A stretch of DNA of 33,179 nucleotides, from contig JALONO010000005.1 in NCBI GenBank assembly GCA_025454895.1, forward strand, positions 1 through 33,179, written 5' to 3'. Positions 3,465-17,992 of this stretch are shown one piece after another. Position numbers and translations under genes: made by a program. Position 1 is the first letter of the stretch; each line of letters opens with the position of its first letter. This stretch comes from Bernardetiaceae bacterium (GTDB lineage Bacteria; Bacteroidota; Bacteroidia; Cytophagales; Thermoflexibacteraceae). The notes under the pieces are model-generated. The model was given only the letters and a program-made list of their open reading frames with translations, was not told where the DNA came from and did no database searches.

Positions 3465-5945
3465 ATGAATTCTAAGTTTACCCAGGCGCGTCAGGTATTG
3501 AGCCAGATTGGGCAGTTACTGCTCCAAATCGGACGGTATCTCGCTGATTTGTGGTCCGATTTCTGGACCGTATTTTGGCCTTGGTTTCGGCAATCGGAGT
3601 TCGTGCGTTTTTTTAAACCCCGCTTAGGCGACTCGCTGGTCATGCACGTGATCCGGGGCTGCTGGTATGTGTTTTTTGCGAGTTGCCTGGCCTGTGTGCT
3701 GTATTTTAAGTCGGTGGAATACAACTGGTTTGGCTGGTACGGGGCCATGCCCGATGTAAAGCTGCTCGAGAACCCTAAAATGCCCACCCCGTCCGAGCTT
3801 TACACCGCCGACGGGGTGCTCATTGGCCGGTTTTATAAAGAAAACCGCATCCCGGTCGAGTACCGGGAACTTTCGCCCAATTTGATCAACGCCCTAGAGG
3901 CCACCGAAGACATCCGTTTCCGGGACCATGCGGGTATCGACTTGCCAGCCACCCTCTCTATTTTATGGTACACCCTGCGCGGCGACCGCCGGGGCGGCAG
4001 CACCATTTCCCAACAGTTGGCCAAAAACCTTTATCGAACCCGCCGCAAAGACGCCAAAGGCAGCCTGTCGGTCAAATATCCCCAACTTACCACTCCCATC
4101 TACAAAACCAAGGAATGGATTACGGCGGTGGACCTCGAGAAAACCTACACCAAGGAGGAGATCATCACCCTCTACTTTAACACGGTGGAGTTTGGGGGCG
4201 GGGCTTTTGGGGTAAAAACAGCCGCGAAGGTGTTTTTTAGCACTACTCCTGACCAACTCACCATCCCCCAAGCCGCGATGTTGGTGGGGATGCTGAAAAA
4301 TCCGACCACGTTTAGCCCCATCCGCCGCCCTGAACGCACCTTGGAACGCCGCAACGTGGTGTTTAACCAGATGCTCAAGTACAATTTCATCACCCGCGAG
4401 CAGTACGATGCCTTTTGCAAGACCCCGCTGGGCCTGCAAAAAAGCGTGGAGCGAGAGGAAGAAAACGGGGCCGCCACCTACTTCCGGGGCGTAATGAACC
4501 AGTATTTGGAAAATTGGTGCGAGGAAAACGACCTGGACCTCTACGCCGACGGCCTGAAAATTTACACCACCATCGACTCGCGGGTGCAGGCCCACGCCGA
4601 GGCGGCCGTGGCCAAAAAAATGAAGGAGTTCCAAAAGATATTCGACCGCCACTGGGGCAACCAATACCCTTGGCGGTACAAATCGGGGGCGGTAATTCCC
4701 AATTACGTGGAAAACATCGCCATCAGGCAATACCGCCGCGAGTTTGATCGAGTGGGCCGCGATACCGCCATTTTCCTGGCCTTGATGAGCAACAAAAAGA
4801 AAATGTCGCTTTTTTCTTGGGACAAGGGCGAGTTTACCGATTCGCTGAGCGTACTCGACTCCATTGAGTATTGCAAACGTTTTTTGCATACCGGCCTCAT
4901 GGCCATGAACCCTCACTCGGGCTACATCCGGGCTTGGGTGGGCGGCATTAATTATAAGTATTTTAAGTTCGATCACGTAAAACGTTCCTTCCGCCAGCCG
5001 GGGTCCACTTTCAAGCCATTTATTTACGCGGCCGCGATCGACTCGTTTGGGTATTCACCCTGCGCCACCTTTCTGGACGCGCCCGTAACCATCAAATACC
5101 AGGAGCGCAACAGCCGCCGGGGCCATTACTCCTTCTGGACCCCGCACAACGCCAGCCAGTCGGCCAGTTATGCCCGCGTAACCATGCGCTATGGCCTAGG
5201 CCGTAGCCTCAATACCGTGGCCGCCCGGGTTACCGAGGCGGTAGGCTGGGGGTCAGTGATCAACTATGCCCGTAAGCTGGGCATCACCACCCGCATGGAC
5301 AGTGTGCCTTCGGTGGGCCTGGGCTCTAGCGAGGTAACTTTGTACGACATGGTGGGAGCCTATGGCACCTTCTTGAACGAGGGCATCTGGACCGAGCCGC
5401 AGTTCATCACCCGCGTGGAAGACCGTAGCGGGCGGATCATCCACCGGTTTAGGCCCAAAACCCGACGGGCCCTCAAACCTGAAAGTGCCTACTTGATGGT
5501 TCACATGCTGCGCGGGGGCCTGCAAGAAAGCGGCGGTACCTCCCGGCGATTGTTTTCTTACCCTAAAGTGGTGAGTAATAACGAGTTGGCCGGTAAAACC
5601 GGATCTTCATCCAACTACGTGGACGCTTGGTACATGGGCCTCACCCGCGACCTGGTAACTGGCGTTTGGGTGGGCGGCGACGACAGCAGTATCCACTTCC
5701 GCACTGGCCAATACGGGGAAGGCTCCAAAACCGCCCTGCCCATTTTCGCCACGTTCATGGAAAACGTGTACAGCGACAGCACCAACCTGGGCATTACCAA
5801 AGGCCGTTTTCCCACCGAGCAAGAACTGCGGCTTACGCTCAACAAGAACCTCATCTGCCCAAGTGTAACCTACACGGGCTATCGGCCCCGCTCCGACTCG
5901 ACGGCCAACCGTTCTGGTGCTGACTCAACAAGCGGGGGGCAGTAA
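3465..5945 (+). CDS. mrcA: Class A penicillin-binding protein (PBP1A-type transglycosylase/transpeptidase)
   Basis: 826 residues. It polymerises and cross-links peptidoglycan outside the inner membrane. A cytoplasmic N-terminus of about 60 residues precedes one membrane segment (about 64-84, around WYVFFASCLACVLYF). The glycosyltransferase (family 51) domain carries the catalytic motif EDIRFRDHAG (about 147) and GGSTISQQLAKNL. The transpeptidase domain has the acylation motif STFK (Ser514/Lys517), an SLN motif (GRSLNTV) and KTG at 711-713. All catalytic motifs are intact. A short insertion (RRKDAKGSLSVKYP) sits inside the transglycosylase domain. The tail after KTG is Ser/Thr-rich. It has its own promoter, and the next gene starts 54 bp after its stop in the same direction with no separate promoter seen, so the two may be co-transcribed. 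Confidence 0.95.
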   Translation: MNSKFTQARQVLSQIGQLLLQIGRYLADLWSDFWTVFWPWFRQSEFVRFFKPRLGDSLVMHVIRGCWYVFFASCLACVLYFKSVEYNWFGWYGAMPDVKLLENPKMPTPSELYTADGVLIGRFYKENRIPVEYRELSPNLINALEATEDIRFRDHAGIDLPATLSILWYTLRGDRRGGSTISQQLAKNLYRTRRKDAKGSLSVKYPQLTTPIYKTKEWITAVDLEKTYTKEEIITLYFNTVEFGGGAFGVKTAAKVFFSTTPDQLTIPQAAMLVGMLKNPTTFSPIRRPERTLERRNVVFNQMLKYNFITREQYDAFCKTPLGLQKSVEREEENGAATYFRGVMNQYLENWCEENDLDLYADGLKIYTTIDSRVQAHAEAAVAKKMKEFQKIFDRHWGNQYPWRYKSGAVIPNYVENIAIRQYRREFDRVGRDTAIFLALMSNKKKMSLFSWDKGEFTDSLSVLDSIEYCKRFLHTGLMAMNPHSGYIRAWVGGINYKYFKFDHVKRSFRQPGSTFKPFIYAAAIDSFGYSPCATFLDAPVTIKYQERNSRRGHYSFWTPHNASQSASYARVTMRYGLGRSLNTVAARVTEAVGWGSVINYARKLGITTRMDSVPSVGLGSSEVTLYDMVGAYGTFLNEGIWTEPQFITRVEDRSGRIIHRFRPKTRRALKPESAYLMVHMLRGGLQESGGTSRRLFSYPKVVSNNELAGKTGSSSNYVDAWYMGLTRDLVTGVWVGGDDSSIHFRTGQYGEGSKTALPIFATFMENVYSDSTNLGITKGRFPTEQELRLTLNKNLICPSVTYTGYRPRSDSTANRSGADSTSGGQ

Positions 5946-8603: not shown

Positions 8604-8694
8604 GTGGAAAACTGAAAGCGCAAATACAACAAGTAGGGTAGGGGAGGTTGCGGCAAATTACATCCGCCCTCTAAATTTTGATTGGTTTTTCGCT

Positions 8695-8702
8695 TAGGTT
8701 TG
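8695..8702 (+). promoter_or_regulatory. -7 promoter box for the alpha-amylase gene
   Basis: TAGGTTTG matches TAnnTTTG exactly. The nearest TTG (8678-8680) is 14 bp upstream, so the -33 part is weak. Predicted start near 8709 lies downstream of an in-frame ATG at 8682, which supports initiation at 8757. Confidence 0.45.
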
Positions 8703-8756
8703 GTGAACCAAGGTGGGTTGTCCACCTCCACGCCCGTTTTTAACCGTGCCTTTCCT

Positions 8757-10604
8757 ATGCGTAAGCCCCTGTTATTGCTCATGAGCCTATTGTCGTTTTT
8801 GCACTTGGCGGCGGCTCCGCCCCAAGTTACCCGCCTGGAACCGCCCCATTGGTGGGTGGGAATGAAGAACCCCGAACTGCAAATCCTGGTTTACGGCCCC
8901 GGCTTGGCCAAAACCGAGGTGAGCCTCACCTACCCCGGCGTTACCCTGGCCGAAGTAACCAAGGTCGAAAGCCCTAACTATCTGTTTCTCACCCTCCAAC
9001 TTGCCCCAGACGTGCCTCCGGGCGAAATCCCGATCGTGTTCAAGCAAGGCTCGGCCAGTACCACCATCAAGTACCCGCTCAAAGCGAAAAATACCGCCGC
9101 CAACCGCATCCAGGGCTTTGGGCCGCAGGATGCCGTTTACCTGCTCATGCCCGACCGGTTTGCTAACGGCAACCCCGCCAACGACCAGTTGCCCGGCTTG
9201 GTGGACAAGGCGGACCGCCAGGCCCCGTTTGGCCGCCACGGAGGCGACTTGGACGGGGTGCTCCAGCACTTGGATCACATCGTTGACCTGGGCATGACGG
9301 CCCTGTGGCTCAACCCGGTGCTGGAAACCAACTTGCCCGCCCCGCACTCGTACCACGGTTATGCCATTACCGATTTTTATCGGGTAGATGCGCGCTTGGG
9401 CGGTAACGAAAAGTACCTCCAACTGGTGGACGAATGCCACCGCCGGGGCCTGAAAGTGATCAAAGACCTGGTGCATAACCACTGTGCCAGCACCCACTGG
9501 TGGATGGCCGACCTGCCCACCCGCGACTGGGTACACCAGTTCCCGAGTTTCACCCGCAGTAACTACCGGCTGGCCGCCGTCTCCGACCCTCATTCGGCCC
9601 GGGGCGACAGCCTGCTGATGACTAACGGCTGGTTTGACAACGTAATGCCCGATTTGAACCAGCGCAATCACTTGCTGGCCCAGTACCTGATCCAAAACAC
9701 GCTGTGGTGGATCGAGTATGCGGGCATCGACGGCATCCGCATGGATACCTACCCCTACCCAGATAAGGAATTTATGGCCCGCTGGGTAGCCGAGGTACTG
9801 GCCGAGTACCCCCGGTTCAACATTGTGGGCGAGGTGTGGATCCACTCGCCCGCCATGACGGCCTACTGGCTGCGGGGCACCCCCAACCGCGACGGCTACC
9901 GCTCCACTTTGCCCAGTGCCACTGATTTTCCGTTGTGGGAGGCCGCTAACCGGGCCTTTACCGAACCCACCGGCTGGGCCGAGGGCCTGAGCCGCCTCTA
10001 CCACGTGCTGGCCGAGGACTTTTTATATCAAAAACCGGAGGAGAACTTGATTTTTCTCGATAATCACGATGTTACCCGCTACTTTACCGCAGTAAAGGAA
10101 GACGCAGCCAAGGTAAAAATGGGCCTGGCCCTCTTGTTCACCATGCGCGGGGTGCCCCAGGTGTACTATGGTACCGAAATCCTCATGGCGGGCGACGGTG
10201 GGTTCCACCCTAGCGTGCGCCGCGACTTCCCCGGGGGCTGGCCCGGCGACCCGACCAATGCCTTTACCCCGGCCGGACGCACCCCCGCGCAAAACGAGGT
10301 GTACGACTACTTGAAAAAACTGGCCCAGTGGCGCAAAGCCCAACCCGTGATCCACCACGGCAAGCTCACCCATTTTATCCCCGCCGAAGATACCTACGTG
10401 TACTTCCGGCACGATGCCACCCATTGCGTGATGGTGGCCTTCAACAGCGGCCAGAAAGACAAAAAGCTGGCAACCAGCCGCTTTGCTGAATTTGTGAGCC
10501 GTTACCGCCGTGCCCGCAACGTGCTCACGGGCGAGCAGCTTACCGATTTGTCGCAATTGGCCCTGCCCGCGCAGTCGGCCCAAGTGTGGGAGTTGGAGAA
10601 ATAG
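8757..10604 (+). CDS. Exported alpha-amylase, cyclomaltodextrinase/neopullulanase type (GH13)
   Basis: 615 residues from ATG 8757, chosen because it starts a proper signal peptide (MRKPLLLLMSLLSFLHLAAA). An in-frame ATG at 8682 would add 25 residues and bury it. An N-terminal beta domain (about 22-120) is followed by the GH13 barrel and a C-terminal beta domain of about 80 residues. The four GH13 regions are intact: KDLVHNH; GIRMDTY with nucleophile Asp330; VGEVW with acid/base Glu359; and FLDNHD with Asp435. It should hydrolyse cyclodextrins or malto-oligosaccharides in the periplasm or outside the cell. No susCD pair or regulator is adjacent. There is no obvious type IX C-terminal sorting domain. 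A bidirectional terminator separates it from gldM, which converges on it. Confidence 0.94.
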   Translation: MRKPLLLLMSLLSFLHLAAAPPQVTRLEPPHWWVGMKNPELQILVYGPGLAKTEVSLTYPGVTLAEVTKVESPNYLFLTLQLAPDVPPGEIPIVFKQGSASTTIKYPLKAKNTAANRIQGFGPQDAVYLLMPDRFANGNPANDQLPGLVDKADRQAPFGRHGGDLDGVLQHLDHIVDLGMTALWLNPVLETNLPAPHSYHGYAITDFYRVDARLGGNEKYLQLVDECHRRGLKVIKDLVHNHCASTHWWMADLPTRDWVHQFPSFTRSNYRLAAVSDPHSARGDSLLMTNGWFDNVMPDLNQRNHLLAQYLIQNTLWWIEYAGIDGIRMDTYPYPDKEFMARWVAEVLAEYPRFNIVGEVWIHSPAMTAYWLRGTPNRDGYRSTLPSATDFPLWEAANRAFTEPTGWAEGLSRLYHVLAEDFLYQKPEENLIFLDNHDVTRYFTAVKEDAAKVKMGLALLFTMRGVPQVYYGTEILMAGDGGFHPSVRRDFPGGWPGDPTNAFTPAGRTPAQNEVYDYLKKLAQWRKAQPVIHHGKLTHFIPAEDTYVYFRHDATHCVMVAFNSGQKDKKLATSRFAEFVSRYRRARNVLTGEQLTDLSQLALPAQSAQVWELEK

Positions 10605-10612
10605 TAACCAAA

Positions 10613-10652
10613 CAAAAAATCCCGGCCACTATGGCCGGGATTTAAATTTTTG
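10613..10652. terminator. Bidirectional intrinsic terminator between amylase and gldM
   Basis: An 11 bp perfect stem, AAATCCCGGCC (10617-10627) and GGCCGGGATTT (10633-10643), with a 5-base loop. It has an A-run on the left and T-rich sequence on the right, so it can stop transcription from both converging genes. Confidence 0.88.
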
Positions 10653-10663
10653 TCAGACAAAAC

Positions 10664-12274
10664 TTATTGGGTGATGTTGTAAGTGAACAAGCCAGCATCG
10701 CCAGGCATGGCCACTTCTTCAATACCACCACGGAAGTTTTTCCGCTGTACTTTCTTGATCTCGATAATAATCCGGTCGCCTTCTTTAGCGTTAGCGCGGA
10801 TGTTGTTCAAATTAGCTTCGCTACCACTTACGCGCATGGGAGGGCCAACAGGGCGACGACCCCGAGCGTGGGTGATCTCCATTTCCGCTACCCGGTAGTT
10901 GGCATCATCAGGAATGATTTGCTTGATGCTCTCGTCAGCCGTAGCCGTAGCTGTAATGGAAGGCGGTACTGATCCCCCCACTTTCAAGTCCAACGGACGG
11001 CCACCAGACCTAACCCCCAAAGTAGGCTTAGGCAACAGGCGCACGTTGAAATCTTGATCGCCGATGTAGTTGCCACCACTCGATACCTTCAGTTTCACCT
11101 TAGCGGCTGAGGGTACTACTACCACTTCGCCTTTCTTAGAGCCGCGCAGGGTTTCGGCCCCGTCAGCCGAGAAAGCAGGATCGTAAGCCACGCCCAGGGC
11201 CGGCACTTGCACGTTCAGCTTGTTGCCGCAGTTGCGGTACAGAGCGGCCACGCTAGCCGACTGGATTTGGATCACCGGCTTGGCCACAATGTAGTCAGCC
11301 TTTACCGTGAAGCTAGTATCATTACCGCTAGCGGTTTTGATGCGGATAGTGCCTTCCCAAGTTTTCTTGGCGTTACCATCGGCATCGTAAGCTCCGCCGG
11401 TGGCGGTAAACTCCAGCGTACCTACCCCGTTGGCATCCACTTTCACCGGGCCAGCCGAAGAGCTCATGCTAGGCTGGGCCGAAGTAGAAGAGGCACCAAT
11501 GAACATTTGGGCGCGGTACTTGGTGCCGGCGGCCACCACCTTAGATTCGGCGTTGTACATGGCTTGGATTTTGTCCAGGCGCACAGCCACGCTACCGATT
11601 TCTTTGGTCAACTCGCTCACCACTTGGGCCTCAGCGCGCACCACTTTGGTCTTCATCTCGCTCAATACGGCCAAAGAGGCTACTAGCGGGGTGTTTTCAA
11701 AGTTCAACCGGGCGAAATCCTTGCTCTTTTGGTCATCGTTTTTGGCAAACGCTGGGATTTCTTTGGCATCTTTGGCAATCGGCTCAACCGTAACCGTCTT
11801 GGTGTACTTACTCATGCTAGCAGCATAAGCGTTCAGCTTCTCCTTTAACTCGTAAGCCTTGCCTTTGGCCCCGCCTTCGGGACCAATCAAGAAATTCATC
11901 GAGTTATCGTAGTTTTTACCGTCCACTGGCTCGCCGGTTTCTTTGTCAACCCCGCCCGTGAATTTGATCAACTCTGACCGCAGGTCATCCATGTATTTAA
12001 GCATGGCGCGCGATTCGGCCTGAGCTTTCTGGGCTTGGGCGTAAATCTGCTGATCTTTCGGCGTGCTACCTTTTTTAAGCTGTTCAGCTACCCCAGACAT
12101 CAGGTCGTCGGTGGCTTTGGTGCCAACGCCAACGGAATACTGGAGACTATCGTCAATAAATTTAAATTTCTCCAAAACAGCGTTACTTACTTGGAGCGCC
12201 AAAAGCGCAGTAAGCACCAGGTACATGAACCCGATCATTCGCTGCCGGGGAGTTTCTTTAGCTCCACCTGCCAT
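10664..12274 (-). CDS. gldM: Type IX secretion/gliding motor protein GldM (PorM)
   Basis: 536 residues, usual length. GldM is anchored in the inner membrane by one N-terminal helix and spans the periplasm, transmitting GldL-driven motion to the GldK/N ring. The N-terminus has the hallmark MAGGAKETPRQRMIGFMYLV (1-20) running into one membrane helix (about 13-31). Arg10 corresponds to the conserved Arg just before the helix of Flavobacterium GldM. The rest is a long periplasmic region, helical to about residue 230 and then beta-rich Ig-like domains, ending LFTYNITQ. It lies 66 bp after gldL on the same strand. A terminator follows directly and gldN does not. Confidence 0.96.
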   Translation of the reverse strand: MAGGAKETPRQRMIGFMYLVLTALLALQVSNAVLEKFKFIDDSLQYSVGVGTKATDDLMSGVAEQLKKGSTPKDQQIYAQAQKAQAESRAMLKYMDDLRSELIKFTGGVDKETGEPVDGKNYDNSMNFLIGPEGGAKGKAYELKEKLNAYAASMSKYTKTVTVEPIAKDAKEIPAFAKNDDQKSKDFARLNFENTPLVASLAVLSEMKTKVVRAEAQVVSELTKEIGSVAVRLDKIQAMYNAESKVVAAGTKYRAQMFIGASSTSAQPSMSSSAGPVKVDANGVGTLEFTATGGAYDADGNAKKTWEGTIRIKTASGNDTSFTVKADYIVAKPVIQIQSASVAALYRNCGNKLNVQVPALGVAYDPAFSADGAETLRGSKKGEVVVVPSAAKVKLKVSSGGNYIGDQDFNVRLLPKPTLGVRSGGRPLDLKVGGSVPPSITATATADESIKQIIPDDANYRVAEMEITHARGRRPVGPPMRVSGSEANLNNIRANAKEGDRIIIEIKKVQRKNFRGGIEEVAMPGDAGLFTYNITQ

Positions 12275-12340: not shown

Positions 12341-13168
12341 TTAGCCCTTCATGGCGGTCAACATGTTGCCGTACACGCGGTTCAGGGTGGTCAGGTTACC
12401 GGTCAGCTTGGTCATTTGCTCTTTGAACACCTGCGACTCTTTGCTGGCTTCGGCCATGCTCTCCATTGCCAAGGTCAAGTTGCTGTAGAACTTGTTCATG
12501 GCCTTCAGGTGGCTGTTGGCATCCTTCAACTCCATTTCGTAAACGGCGTTCAACGAACCCAAGTTCTTCGTGATCAACTGCACTTGTACGTGGTAGTCTT
12601 TGGCATCTTTAGCAGCGTTGGCCATCGATGACATAGCTTCTACCGTACCAGCGTAAGCCTTGTTCAAGGTAACCAAAGCCCCAGAAGCCGACTTCAGGTT
12701 AGTAGCATAGTCGCTAGATGCGTTGGCGGCATCGCTCATGTCGCGCATTTTCAACGCCGAGTCGTTCAAGGTTTTGATGCCTTGGCCAAAGCTCTTGAAG
12801 GAATCGGTGGACAGGTTGGCTTCGGCCAGCATTTGATCCAGACCTACCAGGGCACCAGTAGAGGCCAGCTTGGTGGTCAGGCCGCTATCATGCTTGGCAG
12901 GCAGGGCCTCGGCATTTTCGTCGGCAAGTTCAGGGTACACACGCTCCCACTCGTAGTGAGCCTCGGGGGGCGGGGCAGGCTGGAAAGCACCCAGCAAGAA
13001 GATGAAAGCTTCGGTCAACAGACCAACGGTCAGCATCTCGCCAGCGAATTTCCAGTGCATGATTTTGAAGAGGGCACCTACGATTACTACCGAAGCACCT
13101 ACGCTGGTGATTTTCGGCACGGCCACACGGTAGAACCATTCGGCCCCAGATTCACGTTTTTTGCTCAT
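12341..13168 (-). CDS. gldL: Type IX secretion/gliding motor protein GldL (PorL)
   Basis: 275 residues. GldL is the cytoplasmic-membrane proton-channel subunit of the type IX motor. Two membrane helices lie near the N-terminus (about 17-35 and 43-62), joined by KIMHWKFAGE. Glu53 lies in the second helix (GLLTEAFIFLLG), at the position of the motor-essential acidic residue of the family. The remaining 200 residues are a cytoplasmic, Ala/Ser/Met-rich, largely helical domain typical of GldL. A 321 bp gap separates it from gldK upstream, unusually long inside this operon, and it contains a perfect -7 box. gldL may therefore have its own promoter. Confidence 0.95.
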   Translation of the reverse strand: MSKKRESGAEWFYRVAVPKITSVGASVVIVGALFKIMHWKFAGEMLTVGLLTEAFIFLLGAFQPAPPPEAHYEWERVYPELADENAEALPAKHDSGLTTKLASTGALVGLDQMLAEANLSTDSFKSFGQGIKTLNDSALKMRDMSDAANASSDYATNLKSASGALVTLNKAYAGTVEAMSSMANAAKDAKDYHVQVQLITKNLGSLNAVYEMELKDANSHLKAMNKFYSNLTLAMESMAEASKESQVFKEQMTKLTGNLTTLNRVYGNMLTAMKG

Positions 13169-13489: not shown

Positions 13490-14575
13490 TTAGAATTCAA
13501 AGCCTGAGGAGCGGCCGAGGTAAGTCATGGCGCAACGGAAACCGATGAAAGAGCGGGCGGTGTCTTGGTACTCAAACGAGCGGGTACCGGTCTCGATCAA
13601 GAAGGCAATATCTTTCCAAGAACCACCGCGGATTACCTTACGAGGCTCATTTTCATCGTAATAAGTGGGGTTCAAGTCCCATACCAACGGAACACTGGCA
13701 GGGTTATAAGCATCTTCGCACCACTCGGCGGCGTTGCCAGCCATATCATACAAACCGTAGTCGTTAGCAAAATAAGCCGCTACCGGTCCTGTGTAAGAAA
13801 AACCATCGTCGTAATAATTACCACGGCCGGGCTTAAAGTTGGCCAGGGCGCAGCCTTTGGCGTTACGTACATAGGGACCGCCCCAAGGATACTTGGCCAG
13901 GTCGCGGCCGCCGCGGGCAGCGTACTCCCATTCGGCCTCGGAGGGCAGGCGGAAGTTAGGCAGCGGGAATTTACCGTCTTCTTCGCGGGCAGTGTTAATC
14001 TTCTTGGTGCGCCACTCGCAAAAGATGAGGGCCGATTTCCAGGTAACCCCTACCACCGGGTAGTCGTCAAATGCGGGGTGGGCAAAATAGTACTGGGTGA
14101 GCGGGTCGCCCATGTGGTAGCTGAAGTCGTTCATCCAGGTGGTAGTGTCGGGTTGCAGCAGGTCTTGCACGTCTTGCTGCTCCTCGATTTTGGGCAACAC
14201 CTTGCGGTAGCGGATAAACATGCTGCTATCGCCCGCGATGGGCAACATTTCCGGCACTTCCACCAAAAACTGACGGTATTCGTTGTTGGTGATCTCGGTA
14301 TCGTCCATGTAGAACCCGCTGATGGTGATCTGCTTGTTCATGTTGATCTTGGACGACGCAATGTCTTCGTCGGCTTGGCCCATGTGGAAGGTGCCGGGTG
14401 GTACGGATACCATGCCGAGCGGGAGTTCCTGCTTCCAGCCTTCGCGGCCGAGAACGCCCGTGAGCTGGCCGTCGTCCCCCTTCTTGCCGCCGAAGATACA
14501 ACCTTGCAGTACTGCCGCTGAGGATAGCACTACGCAGGTGCTCTTTATGCCTTGTAATAAGCGCGGTTTCATCAT
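13490..14575 (-). CDS. gldK: Type IX secretion/gliding lipoprotein GldK (PorK)
   Basis: 361 residues. GldK is an outer-membrane lipoprotein that forms the periplasmic ring of the type IX system with GldN. A lipoprotein signal peptide ends at Cys26 (SSAAVLQGC). The mature part is a formylglycine-generating-enzyme (SUMF1) fold, with PPGTFHMGQADED near the start, FRLPSEAEWEYAARGG in the middle and VIRGGSWKD near the end. In GldK this fold is structural. It lies 157 bp downstream of porP on the same strand. That gap contains a small inverted repeat (GGTTGTTG at 14634-14641, CAACAACC at 14666-14673) and no exact -7 box, so read-through from porP is likely. Confidence 0.95.
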   Translation of the reverse strand: MMKPRLLQGIKSTCVVLSSAAVLQGCIFGGKKGDDGQLTGVLGREGWKQELPLGMVSVPPGTFHMGQADEDIASSKINMNKQITISGFYMDDTEITNNEYRQFLVEVPEMLPIAGDSSMFIRYRKVLPKIEEQQDVQDLLQPDTTTWMNDFSYHMGDPLTQYYFAHPAFDDYPVVGVTWKSALIFCEWRTKKINTAREEDGKFPLPNFRLPSEAEWEYAARGGRDLAKYPWGGPYVRNAKGCALANFKPGRGNYYDDGFSYTGPVAAYFANDYGLYDMAGNAAEWCEDAYNPASVPLVWDLNPTYYDENEPRKVIRGGSWKDIAFLIETGTRSFEYQDTARSFIGFRCAMTYLGRSSGFEF

Positions 14576-14732: not shown

Positions 14733-15719
14733 TTACTCAAATCTGAATCTCGGTGTGCGTATAATGTACCGTCTGGGCTTTGCTGCGGCAGGAATTCGGT
14801 AAGCTAACCGTAATTCGTGCGAGGTGGTTGCTAGAGCCGCCTGGCTGTTCAGCCGCAGGTCGCCGGCATATCCGATGCTCAGTGAGTTATCCTTCAACAA
14901 GTTAAGCCCTAACAACAAAATGGCGTCGTTAACGCCGCTGTTCGTGCCGCTGGGGGCAATGTCGCGAAACGACAACCCCACCACGAACTTTTGCTGGTAA
15001 CTTAACACCGCGCTACCTTCAAACGAGGTAACGTTGCGTAAGTTGGTTTTCACGATCCCGGAAGGGGAGAGCGTTAAACTGGGCGACAAGTCAAAGTTCA
15101 ATCCACCTAACAACGTATAATTGCCTTCTAGTCGATTGGAAACAATCTCTGTGCCATAGTTGAGGGTAGGCTGCAAAAGGTGGTTGTTACTTAACCCTAA
15201 AAAGAATTTTTTGGACGAATAATAGACACCAAGGCCAAAATCCGGGGTCCATTGGCTCTCGCGCCCGCGCCCGGAAATGAGCGGATCGTTGGGGTCGTTG
15301 GCCCTAAAACGGTTAAAATCAATGGTGCTGTTGTAAAAACCGCCGCTTACGCCCAGCGAAAAACGTCCCCGCTTGGTGGGGATGTGGTAGGCGTAAGAAA
15401 ATTTCAAATCATTAATGCTGGTGGGACCTAGCACGTCGTTCAAAAAGTGGAGGCCGATGCCGCTATTGACCGAGTTGAGCGGCATGCTGTAAGAAAACAC
15501 CGTGCTCACGGGCGCGCCCCCGTCGTCGAAGGTGGGGGTGTAACCAACCCACTGCCGCCGGTAAAGCAGGTTAAACTGGGTAAACCGTGGGTCCACGCCA
15601 GCCGTGGCCGGGTTAAGGTACAGTTGGTTGAACATGTACTGGCTAAATTGGGCATCTTGCTGAGCCAGCGCAACTAAACTGCTGATTGTGAGTAACGTAG
15701 TAGCAAAAAGTCGTTTCAT
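14733..15719 (-). CDS. porP: PorP/SprF family type IX secretion outer-membrane protein
   Basis: 328 residues with a signal peptide (MKRLFATTLLTISSLVALAQ). The mature N-terminus QDAQFSQYMFNQLYLNPATAG is the family hallmark. The rest alternates short beta-strands typical of a small outer-membrane barrel and ends in an aromatic C-terminus (RTPRFRFE). PorP/SprF proteins partner the GldK/N ring or assist secretion of particular substrates such as adhesins. The gene heads the gldK-L-M block and is downstream of hemD by 218 bp. The paralogue family is large, so whether this is the core PorP or an SprF-like accessory cannot be told from sequence alone; its position favours the core one. Confidence 0.93.
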   Translation of the reverse strand: MKRLFATTLLTISSLVALAQQDAQFSQYMFNQLYLNPATAGVDPRFTQFNLLYRRQWVGYTPTFDDGGAPVSTVFSYSMPLNSVNSGIGLHFLNDVLGPTSINDLKFSYAYHIPTKRGRFSLGVSGGFYNSTIDFNRFRANDPNDPLISGRGRESQWTPDFGLGVYYSSKKFFLGLSNNHLLQPTLNYGTEIVSNRLEGNYTLLGGLNFDLSPSLTLSPSGIVKTNLRNVTSFEGSAVLSYQQKFVVGLSFRDIAPSGTNSGVNDAILLLGLNLLKDNSLSIGYAGDLRLNSQAALATTSHELRLAYRIPAAAKPRRYIIRTPRFRFE

Positions 15720-15937: not shown

Positions 15938-16729
15938 TTATTTGTTAGCTTCTTTGATGTACACCTCAATAGCCCCGGTCATGGAGGGCGCGTCGGGGTG
16001 GGGGGCCTGGATGTCCAACAATAGGTGGTGATCAGTTACCGCTTTAGCCGTAGTGGGACCAAAAGCAGCAATGCGGATGTCTCCCTGTTGGAATTCCGGG
16101 AAGTTGTGGAACAACGAAGTAACGCCCGAAGGACTGAAAAAAGCCAACATATCGTAACCAGCCACGTCCAGGTCAGACAATTGGCTGGGCACGGTTTGGT
16201 AAATCACGGCCTCGGAGCATTTGATGCCACTCTTTTCTAAGAACGCCGGGATGTCGTCTTTTCGTACTTCCGAACAAGGGTAGAGGTACTTTTCGGTCTT
16301 GTGTTTTTTGAACAAGTCGAACATGTCGGAGGCCACGCGCTTACCGGTAAAAATTTTGCGCTTGCGGATCACGATATACTTCTGGAGGTAATTGGCGGTT
16401 TGCTCAGAGATGCAGAAGTACTTCATGTCGGCAGGCATCTCAATTTTACTTTCCTCGCAGAGCTTGAAAAAATGATCAACCGAATTACGGCTAGTGAAAA
16501 TCACCGCCGTATGATCCAAAATATTGATCTTTTGCTTCCTAAACTCGTTTTTACCTACGGCTTCTACTTGAATGAACGGCCGGAAGTCGATGCGGAGATT
16601 GTATTTTTTGGCAAGTTCGCTGTAAGGGTTTTTGTCGTTTTCGGGCTGAGGCTGTGAGATGAGTATGGTGTTTACTTGCTTAAGCCTTTCGCGGTGTTGA
16701 ATGATTGACGACAGTTTTTGTTCGGTCAT
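15938..16729 (-). CDS. hemD: Uroporphyrinogen-III synthase
   Basis: 263 residues. The enzyme closes hydroxymethylbilane with inversion of ring D to give uroporphyrinogen III for haem. Two Rossmann-like halves are visible: ILISQPQPENDKNPY near the start, HTAVIFTSRNSVDHFF at about 73-88, and LAFFSPSGVTSLFHNF with IAAFGPTTAKAV in the C-terminal part. These SPSG and FGPTTA motifs are typical of HemD. An N-terminal extension of about 20 residues is common in Bacteroidota. It starts 3 bases after the stop of the DUF4271 gene, so the two are translated from one message. Other haem genes are not in the window. Confidence 0.92.
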   Translation of the reverse strand: MTEQKLSSIIQHRERLKQVNTILISQPQPENDKNPYSELAKKYNLRIDFRPFIQVEAVGKNEFRKQKINILDHTAVIFTSRNSVDHFFKLCEESKIEMPADMKYFCISEQTANYLQKYIVIRKRKIFTGKRVASDMFDLFKKHKTEKYLYPCSEVRKDDIPAFLEKSGIKCSEAVIYQTVPSQLSDLDVAGYDMLAFFSPSGVTSLFHNFPEFQQGDIRIAAFGPTTAKAVTDHHLLLDIQAPHPDAPSMTGAIEVYIKEANK

Positions 16730-16732
16730 AAA

Positions 16733-17992
16733 TCAAAATGTTACAAATAATTTCAGCGCGGCCAAAATGGGCAAAATTTCGCCGGTGCAAAGGTATGCAA
16801 ATAAATAAATATCGCGGTGGTTGCTGGCTTTATTTATCCGGTAGCACACCAGAAGGGTTTTGAGCAGCCAACCGCCCATGACCAAATAAAACAGGTAAAT
16901 GGCCTGGGTATCAACGAACCAGGGCGGGCTGGCGGCCAAGCCTAAGGCTAGCAACAGCACCACGCTGATAAATAGGCGGGAGATATTCATGAAGTCGTAG
17001 AGGTGCAGCACGGGCAGTTGGCGGTCGTTGTAAAGCCCGCCCAAGAAGTTGAGCCATAGGTATTTAGCTCCCAGGGCGGCCAAAATACCTACCGCCAGGC
17101 CACCAAAGGAGCCTAGCCAGCCCCATAAATTTGGAGCTGGCCGCAAAAAGTCAGGTAGTTGCAGGCGGGTGGTGTAGTGGTCTAGCAACAATAAAGTGAA
17201 GGCCAGGGCCAAGCTGTAATACAAAGTGAAGATGATGTACGGCCCGGCCTCAAAGCGTTTGGGCGGTTCCCGCTCGCGGCTAAACACGGCCTTAATGGCC
17301 TGGCTCAAATAGCGGGGGCTGAACAACGAGTTGCCCGTGGCGGAAATGAGGGCCACGGCGGCCAGCAGCCCCAGCCAAAGCACCGTAAAATAGTTACGGG
17401 CGGCATGGGCCGGGCGCGGGGCCGGGGGTTGGGCCTTGGTGGTGGTTACTACCAGGGTGCGTACAGCGCTGTCGCGGGCCATTACCGGGGGCAGCGGGGG
17501 GAGCGTATCGGGCGGGGCGGTAAAAAAGGCGGCCGGGGGCGGCCCCACATTGCCAACGGGCCAATAGTAGCCCAGGGCCAGTGGCACAGTGTCGCGGCGG
17601 GCCATTAAACGCCGCAAACTGTCAAGTCGGAAGTGTTTCCAATGGGCGGTTTCCCACTTGCTCACTAGTTGGTGGTTGGCAAACAGGTAAGCCCCCGGTT
17701 GGCCGGCCAGGCTGAGCCATCGGCCCGCAAAATTGGCAGTATCGAGCCGGAGGTAAACTTGCTGCCGACCAGTGTGGATTTTCCATAGAAAAGGTTCATA
17801 TACCTTGGTTTCCCGGTCATAGGTAGACCAGCTAGCCTGGAGTGAGACCAAGCCGCGGTGGCTGGGCGGCAGGGCTTGCCCCCACCCCGCACCACTTATT
17901 AGCAGCCAACAGGCCCAGAATAAGCTTGCTCGCCCGCCTTGCCCAGGCAAGTGAGCGCACGAAACTAACCAACGGGGGGCCGGAAACTTCAC
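16733..17992 (-). CDS. DUF4271 membrane protein
   Basis: 419 residues from a GTG at 17992. No ATG gives the complete signal peptide, and the GTG sits about 11 bases after the start predicted from the -7 box at 18016-18009. A signal peptide (around FWACWLLISGAGWGQA) leads into a periplasmic region of about 160 residues, followed by about six to seven membrane helices (from about 205 to the end) matching the DUF4271 domain. The function is unknown. In Bacteroidota this gene regularly sits just before hemD, as here (3-base gap), which hints at a role tied to haem synthesis or at simple co-transcription. Confidence 0.88.
   Translation of the reverse strand: MKFPAPRWLVSCAHLPGQGGRASLFWACWLLISGAGWGQALPPSHRGLVSLQASWSTYDRETKVYEPFLWKIHTGRQQVYLRLDTANFAGRWLSLAGQPGAYLFANHQLVSKWETAHWKHFRLDSLRRLMARRDTVPLALGYYWPVGNVGPPPAAFFTAPPDTLPPLPPVMARDSAVRTLVVTTTKAQPPAPRPAHAARNYFTVLWLGLLAAVALISATGNSLFSPRYLSQAIKAVFSREREPPKRFEAGPYIIFTLYYSLALAFTLLLLDHYTTRLQLPDFLRPAPNLWGWLGSFGGLAVGILAALGAKYLWLNFLGGLYNDRQLPVLHLYDFMNISRLFISVVLLLALGLAASPPWFVDTQAIYLFYLVMGGWLLKTLLVCYRINKASNHRDIYLFAYLCTGEILPILAALKLFVTF

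Follow-up and report, generated by a model that had tools for sequence, protein, structure and literature searches.

A gldK-gldL-gldM motor block without gldN behind gldM, and a detached gldN on another contig, in a Bernardetiaceae draft genome

The closest described counterparts of this locus are porPKLMN of Porphyromonas gingivalis and gldKLMN of Flavobacterium johnsoniae. The P. gingivalis genes stand in the order porPKLMN, and porK-N are co-transcribed (PMC5790014, PMC7323717). In P. gingivalis, GldK/PorK and GldN/PorN build a ring at a ratio of 1:1 (PMC4980022, PMC12635249), and PorK, PorL and PorM were not detected in a porN mutant of this species (PMC4980022). F. johnsoniae shows two neighbouring, partly redundant paralogues, gldN and gldO (PMC9127263). 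Co-localisation rules for the genes of the type IX secretion system (T9SS), with four loners, were given in PMC4793230.

The block analyzed here contains the same families in the same porP-to-gldM order, and the GldN of its organism is recognized by the same family models and has a predicted PorN fold; however, gldN lies outside the operon, a terminator follows gldM, and gldN has an upstream region of its own. With its detached gldN, the locus shows a known machine in a new layout, and no report of a detached gldN was found in the titles or abstract openings among the literature matches listed.

Gene order and 3' boundary of the motor block

The window, which is the whole stretch of DNA analyzed (33,179 nucleotides), is the entire contig C59 of a 4.58-Mb draft genome in 389 contigs. 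Annotation with Pfam and NCBIfam profiles shows the order DUF4271-hemD-porP-gldK-gldL-gldM on the minus strand, with gldM as the last gene (Table 1). A first-pass annotation made from the sequence alone had read porP-gldK-gldL-gldM, and the profiles TIGR03525, TIGR03513, TIGR03517 and PF11751 bear this order out. It had also stated that the block stops at gldM with no gldN in the usual place, and the PF19841 and six-frame searches of the window agree. PF19841 had no match on the whole contig at an E-value of 0.001, and no six-frame piece of at least 50 amino acids scored above 60 bits with the GldN profile, although neither search would necessarily pick up a remnant that is shorter or heavily decayed. 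The window lacks the arrangement that defines a gldKLMN operon, in which gldN stands right behind gldM in one transcription unit. On this side, a cyclomaltodextrinase-type alpha-amylase gene, whose start codon is uncertain (TTG at 8682, or 8757), converges on gldM with a 59-bp gap in between.

Table 1. Features of the motor block and its 3' side, in window coordinates.
Feature	Position	Strand	Evidence
cyclomaltodextrinase-type alpha-amylase gene, on the usual gldN side of gldM	8682..10604	+	PF00128, PF09087, PF10438
two-way intrinsic terminator in the gap between the gldM and amylase genes	10617..10643	.	stem of 12 pairs (7 GC) with a T-rich tail on each strand
gldM/porM, last gene of the block	10664..12274	-	TIGR03517, 409.5 bits (cut-off 180); four GldM Pfam domains
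gldL/porL	12341..13168	-	TIGR03513, 256.5 bits (cut-off 68.3)
gldK/porK, ring partner of GldN	13490..14575	-	TIGR03525, 459.6 bits (cut-off 350)
porP/sprF-type membrane protein gene	14733..15719	-	PF11751, E-value 1e-63
hemD, upstream block	15938..16729	-	PF02602; order common to linked relatives
DUF4271 gene, upstream block	16733..17992	-	PF14093; order common to linked relatives

The genome of the window encodes the components by which a T9SS was recognized: GldK, GldL, GldM, SprA, PorU and proteins with type-A secretion tails, for which all 37 matches lie over the cut-off. SprA is found as two contig-end pieces, the gene being broken across the ends of G000:C42 and C383 in this draft.

The first-pass annotation described a strong bidirectional terminator and a converging amylase gene after gldM, and the stem, the tails and a shuffle test confirmed them. 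The RNA of the gap folds with −22.3 and −23.4 kcal/mol (z-scores of −5.69 and −5.10) on the two strands, and none of 200 shuffles folded as well on either strand.

The same annotation had raised an assembly join in the gap. If the window joined unrelated stretches at 10605-10663, gldN could truly lie behind gldM; the fragmentation of the draft and the representation of the window's genus by one genome leave room for such an error. However, gldM and gldN are each kilobases inside their contigs, the two genes at the junction converge cleanly on a common terminator, and GC content in 1-kb windows shows no sharp step across it. Furthermore, the separation of gldM from gldN recurs in ten other genomes from the window's family (f1) and a related family (f2), two of which (G032 and G047) carry both genes on one multi-megabase contig. 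With the genes off the contig ends and other assemblies equally split, a join at the gldM-amylase junction is unlikely, and we regard misassembly as an extremely improbable account of the locus.

The stand-alone gldN gene and its upstream element

From the empty position behind gldM, it had been concluded that gldN must be encoded elsewhere, replaced or lost, and a whole-genome search for GldN/PorN homologues had been suggested. This search found an intact gldN on contig C53 (G000:C53:6082-6951, minus strand, 289 amino acid residues); the first option stands and the other two fall. PF19841 matches at G000:C53:6088-6840 over 228 of 228 positions (E-value 2.9e-61, 207.9 bits, cut-off 23) with no stops, and the protein also lies above the TIGR03523 cut-off (132.4 versus 85.9 bits). 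It is the single full-length gldN of the genome, the second PF19841 match being weak (20.4 bits, below the cut-off) and belonging to a repeat protein on C19. As an ordinary GldN is present on C53, no replacement protein is needed, and the C19 protein was set aside in this role: GldN is neither lost nor replaced in this organism.

The contig ends set a minimum distance of about 14 kb between gldM and gldN (10.7 kb from the 3' end of gldM to the nearer contig end, plus 3.5 kb). The C53 gldN has, as same-strand neighbors, genes for a family-9 glycosyltransferase and a Mur-ligase-like protein, and a terminator-like repeat, read by eye and unscored, lies 3' of it. A short array of 8-base repeats of the GCATGATT type was also observed downstream (L003:5970-6020).

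A sequence-profile search of PDB with the C53 GldN gave no match at an E-value of 0.01. Its AF2 model has moderate confidence (mean pLDDT of 67.4) and predicts an N-terminal hydrophobic helix at residues 2-21. In a structure search with this model, all five PDB matches with E-values of 0.001 or less were PorN or PorKN entries, the top one being 9ots_D (E-value 5.2e-8, probability 1.00, TM 0.51/0.56); the model thus predicts a PorN fold.

The C19 protein (L004:8728-10170, minus strand) has 480 amino acid residues with repeated weak GldN-like segments. In its low-confidence model (pLDDT of 54.7), three similar strand-strand-strand-helix modules can be made out by eye, and the best matches in PDB are to PorN (7pvh_A, E-value 1.2e-5). 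Two separate GldN matches within one long open frame were also seen in G006, G009, G011, G032 and G047. Proteins of the C19 type form a multi-GldN protein family.

Upstream of the C53 gldN, a 15-base element, GGCATATTTATTGTT, spans −53 to −39 from the start codon. It is identical in two genomes of g5, the sister genus (G004 and G008), where it is placed after the terminator that follows gldM; in the other two g5 genomes it is found at 13 of 15 positions (G012), or at 12 of 15 and further upstream (G010). The pattern GGCATATTTNTTG occurs in 11 of 263 loci, each one a record of the gldN of the window's own genome or of the gldM-gldN junction of three of the four g5 genomes, and the exact GGCATATTTATTG site appears once in the 4.58-Mb own genome. 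An element common to all split genomes was rejected, as it is absent before the gldN of other genera: matches before their detached gldN are at chance level, except for a weak one of 12 of 15 (G007, contig C63).

The form GGCATR-N4-TTGTW resembles a sigma-54 site, and 11 of the 13 f1 genomes, the window's included, encode an RpoN domain. In the window, the plain element had no match at up to two mismatches; a wider sigma-54-like form had one match, inside porP (0.48 expected by chance), and the stretch before porP, also read by eye, showed no sigma-54-like site. The element before the C53 gldN is a candidate promoter, and its control by sigma-54 a putative idea.

Linkage of gldM and gldN among relatives

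The named loci sample consists of the best 80 of 575 confirmed loci of the GldM search. In these, gldN adjoins gldM in 74, is apart in five (L140, L141, L145, L190 and L204) and is cut off in one. L140 and L141 correspond to G013 and G007, respectively, L204 corresponds to a second gldM of G042, a genome that also has a linked set, and the GldM of L145 groups with f2 GldM (99/94).

The genome sample contains 59 genomes around the window, its own included: 13 belong to f1, three to f2 and 43 to other families. Linkage counts took only GldN rows of at least about 130 bits and GldM rows of at least about 89 bits. In f1, eight genomes are split, four are linked and one is undecidable; the linked genomes all belong to g5, the only f1 genus seen with gldN beside gldM. 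All three f2 genomes are split. In the other families, 37 genomes are linked by coordinates and five are undecidable; one more, G028, is split by coordinates but linked across a contig break, which its gldM spans, with gldN after the 3' piece. The linkage state of G001 is undecidable. The ten genomes that have the same split as the window are joined by one named MAG. The first-pass annotation had taken the sharp terminator as a sign of an old, settled rearrangement; the age holds at the level of the clade, in which 8 of the 12 decidable f1 genomes and 3 of the 3 f2 genomes are split, while the terminator fails as evidence for it.

This failure follows from the gldM 3' boundary in close relatives, whose comparison had been proposed as a check. 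All 12 primary split loci have a terminator within 120 nt downstream of gldM, as do three of four g5 loci and one of 81 distinct other linked loci; in single-base shuffles, the average was 0.10, 0.05 and 0.95 loci, respectively. The primary split set excludes five second gldM copies (L098, L103, L106, L190 and L204) as well as the records L140 and L141; in an earlier scan, all of these except L098 had a terminator. That scan, in which linked loci were searched only up to gldN, gave 18 of 19 uncut split loci, three of four g5 loci and two of 82 other linked loci; the 19 include second gldM copies and two duplicate records, and the miss is the second gldM of G005. In the three g5 genomes, the terminator sits between gldM and gldN; in the fourth (G012), the scan after gldM was without match and a hairpin-like repeat is visible by eye. 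Since the terminator also follows gldM in g5 genomes that have gldN there, it is no evidence of rearrangement. It is probably a clade trait and not the scar of the move of gldN.

PF19841 has GldN matches in 55 of the 59 genomes, which contradicts the absence of PorN from Cytophagia as stated in PMC7323717, where this class acquired the T9SS components examined, PorN excepted. That study used BLASTP with e-value and 60% coverage filters, which may explain the miss. Named Cytophagales with gldN beside gldM include Hymenobacter, Pontibacter and Dyadobacter. The linked operons of these and other genera have the same upstream block as the window, and in many of them converging uvrC and mrcA genes stand behind gldM-gldN (uvrC assigned by eye from the N-terminus); in contrast, the window has the amylase gene past gldM, and its mrcA-like gene belongs to a different paralogue class. 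Tools that expect gldN within the cluster may miss it in split genomes.

As with gldN/gldO of F. johnsoniae, extra gldN copies are common in the split clade; however, most are scattered and not beside gldKLM. At least two gldN matches above 130 bits were found in 10 of the 11 split genomes, the sole single-copy one being the window's genome, in six of the 37 linked genomes of other families, and in two of the four g5 genomes, one copy there being interrupted by a stop.

The hemD-DUF4271 pair sits upstream of porP-gldK in the window and in many relatives. In G005, a detached gldN (L071, region of G005:C46:288521) adjoins such a pair; gldM lies on that contig as well, at a distance of 62 kb, and this neighborhood suggests a rearrangement of the old block.

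Descent and possible routes of gldN

The C53 GldN is sister to the g5 GldN in two GldN trees (100/98 and 98/97), the second of which drops five rows of the first one's set. The window GldM is likewise sister to the g5 GldM (100/99) in a tree that drops 7 of 49 rows (second copies, a duplicate and L145), serves as a stand-in for the species tree and had a bootstrap that had not quite settled. As both proteins are sister to their g5 counterparts, vertical descent is likely, and gldN most likely moved within the lineage, to judge by these trees. A single clade of all detached GldN of f1 and f2 without g5 was rejected (p-AU 0.00014) in a topology test on 45 of 63 rows, the 18 dropped being chiefly long branches and near-duplicates. 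When linked and split states are placed on the GldM tree, at least two changes are needed; without rejoining, the number rises to four (3-6 across 1000 bootstraps).

We are confident that the window holds an intact T9SS motor block whose gldN was uncoupled and relocated, and now stands alone on C53. In the proposed course of events, gldM would have gained its terminator in the ancestor of f1 and f2, and gldN would then have needed a promoter of its own. A separately transcribed gldN would be free for copying and relocation; it would now be dispersed in all sampled decidable members except g5, where it would be still, or again, behind the terminator. Probably, gldN is uncoupled from gldKLM transcription throughout the f1/f2 clade, and GldK and GldN, presumably needed in equal amounts, no longer come from one message. 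The C53 GldN would still pair with the GldK of the window block in a GldK-GldN ring, or track. A clade with a separate, often multiplied gldN would offer a natural experiment on the break-up of operons and on the balancing of ring parts that share no message.

The order of these events can be read in several ways. The terminator may have uncoupled gldN while it was still beside gldM, followed by repeated exits, with g5 keeping the intermediate stage. This order agrees with gldM-terminator-gldN in g5 and with the second gldN elsewhere in two of its four genomes, which branches inside g5 and is a plausible intermediate, with the caveat that the copy of G004 holds the stop. Detached gldN of different genera have few neighbor clusters in common, by eye, and duplicates mostly branch within one genus or genus group. 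Against repeated exits stands their cost of four on the best GldM tree, versus two changes with rejoining, and we hold this order of events as evenly balanced between right and wrong.

Those two changes, the fewest on the GldM tree, would correspond to one departure of gldN in the common ancestor and its re-insertion behind gldM in g5. The g5 gldN is nested among detached gldN, as the rejected all-detached clade indicates, and the terminator precedes it. However, this nesting is expected under repeated departure too, and re-insertion some 90-210 bp behind gldM in the same orientation would be improbable in the absence of selection. The uvrC-mrcA pair found behind gldN in many linked genomes did not turn up in g5, but it is likewise missing beside gldN in the three linked genomes examined from family f18. 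A return of gldN in g5 is conceivable, and we would sooner doubt it than accept it. Its fuller form, in which gldN was taken from the operon transcriptionally by the terminator and its own promoter, scattered, and then rejoined in one genus with the terminator kept and GGCATR-N4-TTGTW as control point, is speculative and rather unlikely. If true, an operon would have been dismantled and then physically rejoined, with two subunits of a 1:1 ring under separate control.

The f18 genomes also bear on the loss of the operonic gldN and its replacement by an older dispersed paralogue, as all three sampled carry an operonic and a dispersed gldN. Forcing the f18 second copies (two of three used) to group with the two split families has a cost of 6.5 log units (p-AU 0.052), and the cost for the operonic copies is 4.3 (p-AU 0.21); the protein trees do not separate an operonic origin of the dispersed genes from an older dispersed one. 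We consider a take-over by such a paralogue improbable.

The mrcA-like gene of the window (3465-5945) was considered as a retained ancestral neighbor of gldN; it clustered at first with the mrcA found past gldN-uvrC in linked genomes. In the mrcA tree it belongs to a separate paralogue class, and therefore this idea was dropped. The mrcA-like gene on C188 of the same genome groups with the gldN-linked mrcA in the tree, and the best UvrC match of this genome is on C26. Finally, the f2 genomes G032 and G047 (L086 and L089) show two gldN-like genes in tandem, one of each pair being highly diverged, and the branch of the diverged gene in the GldN tree has a length of 2.68.
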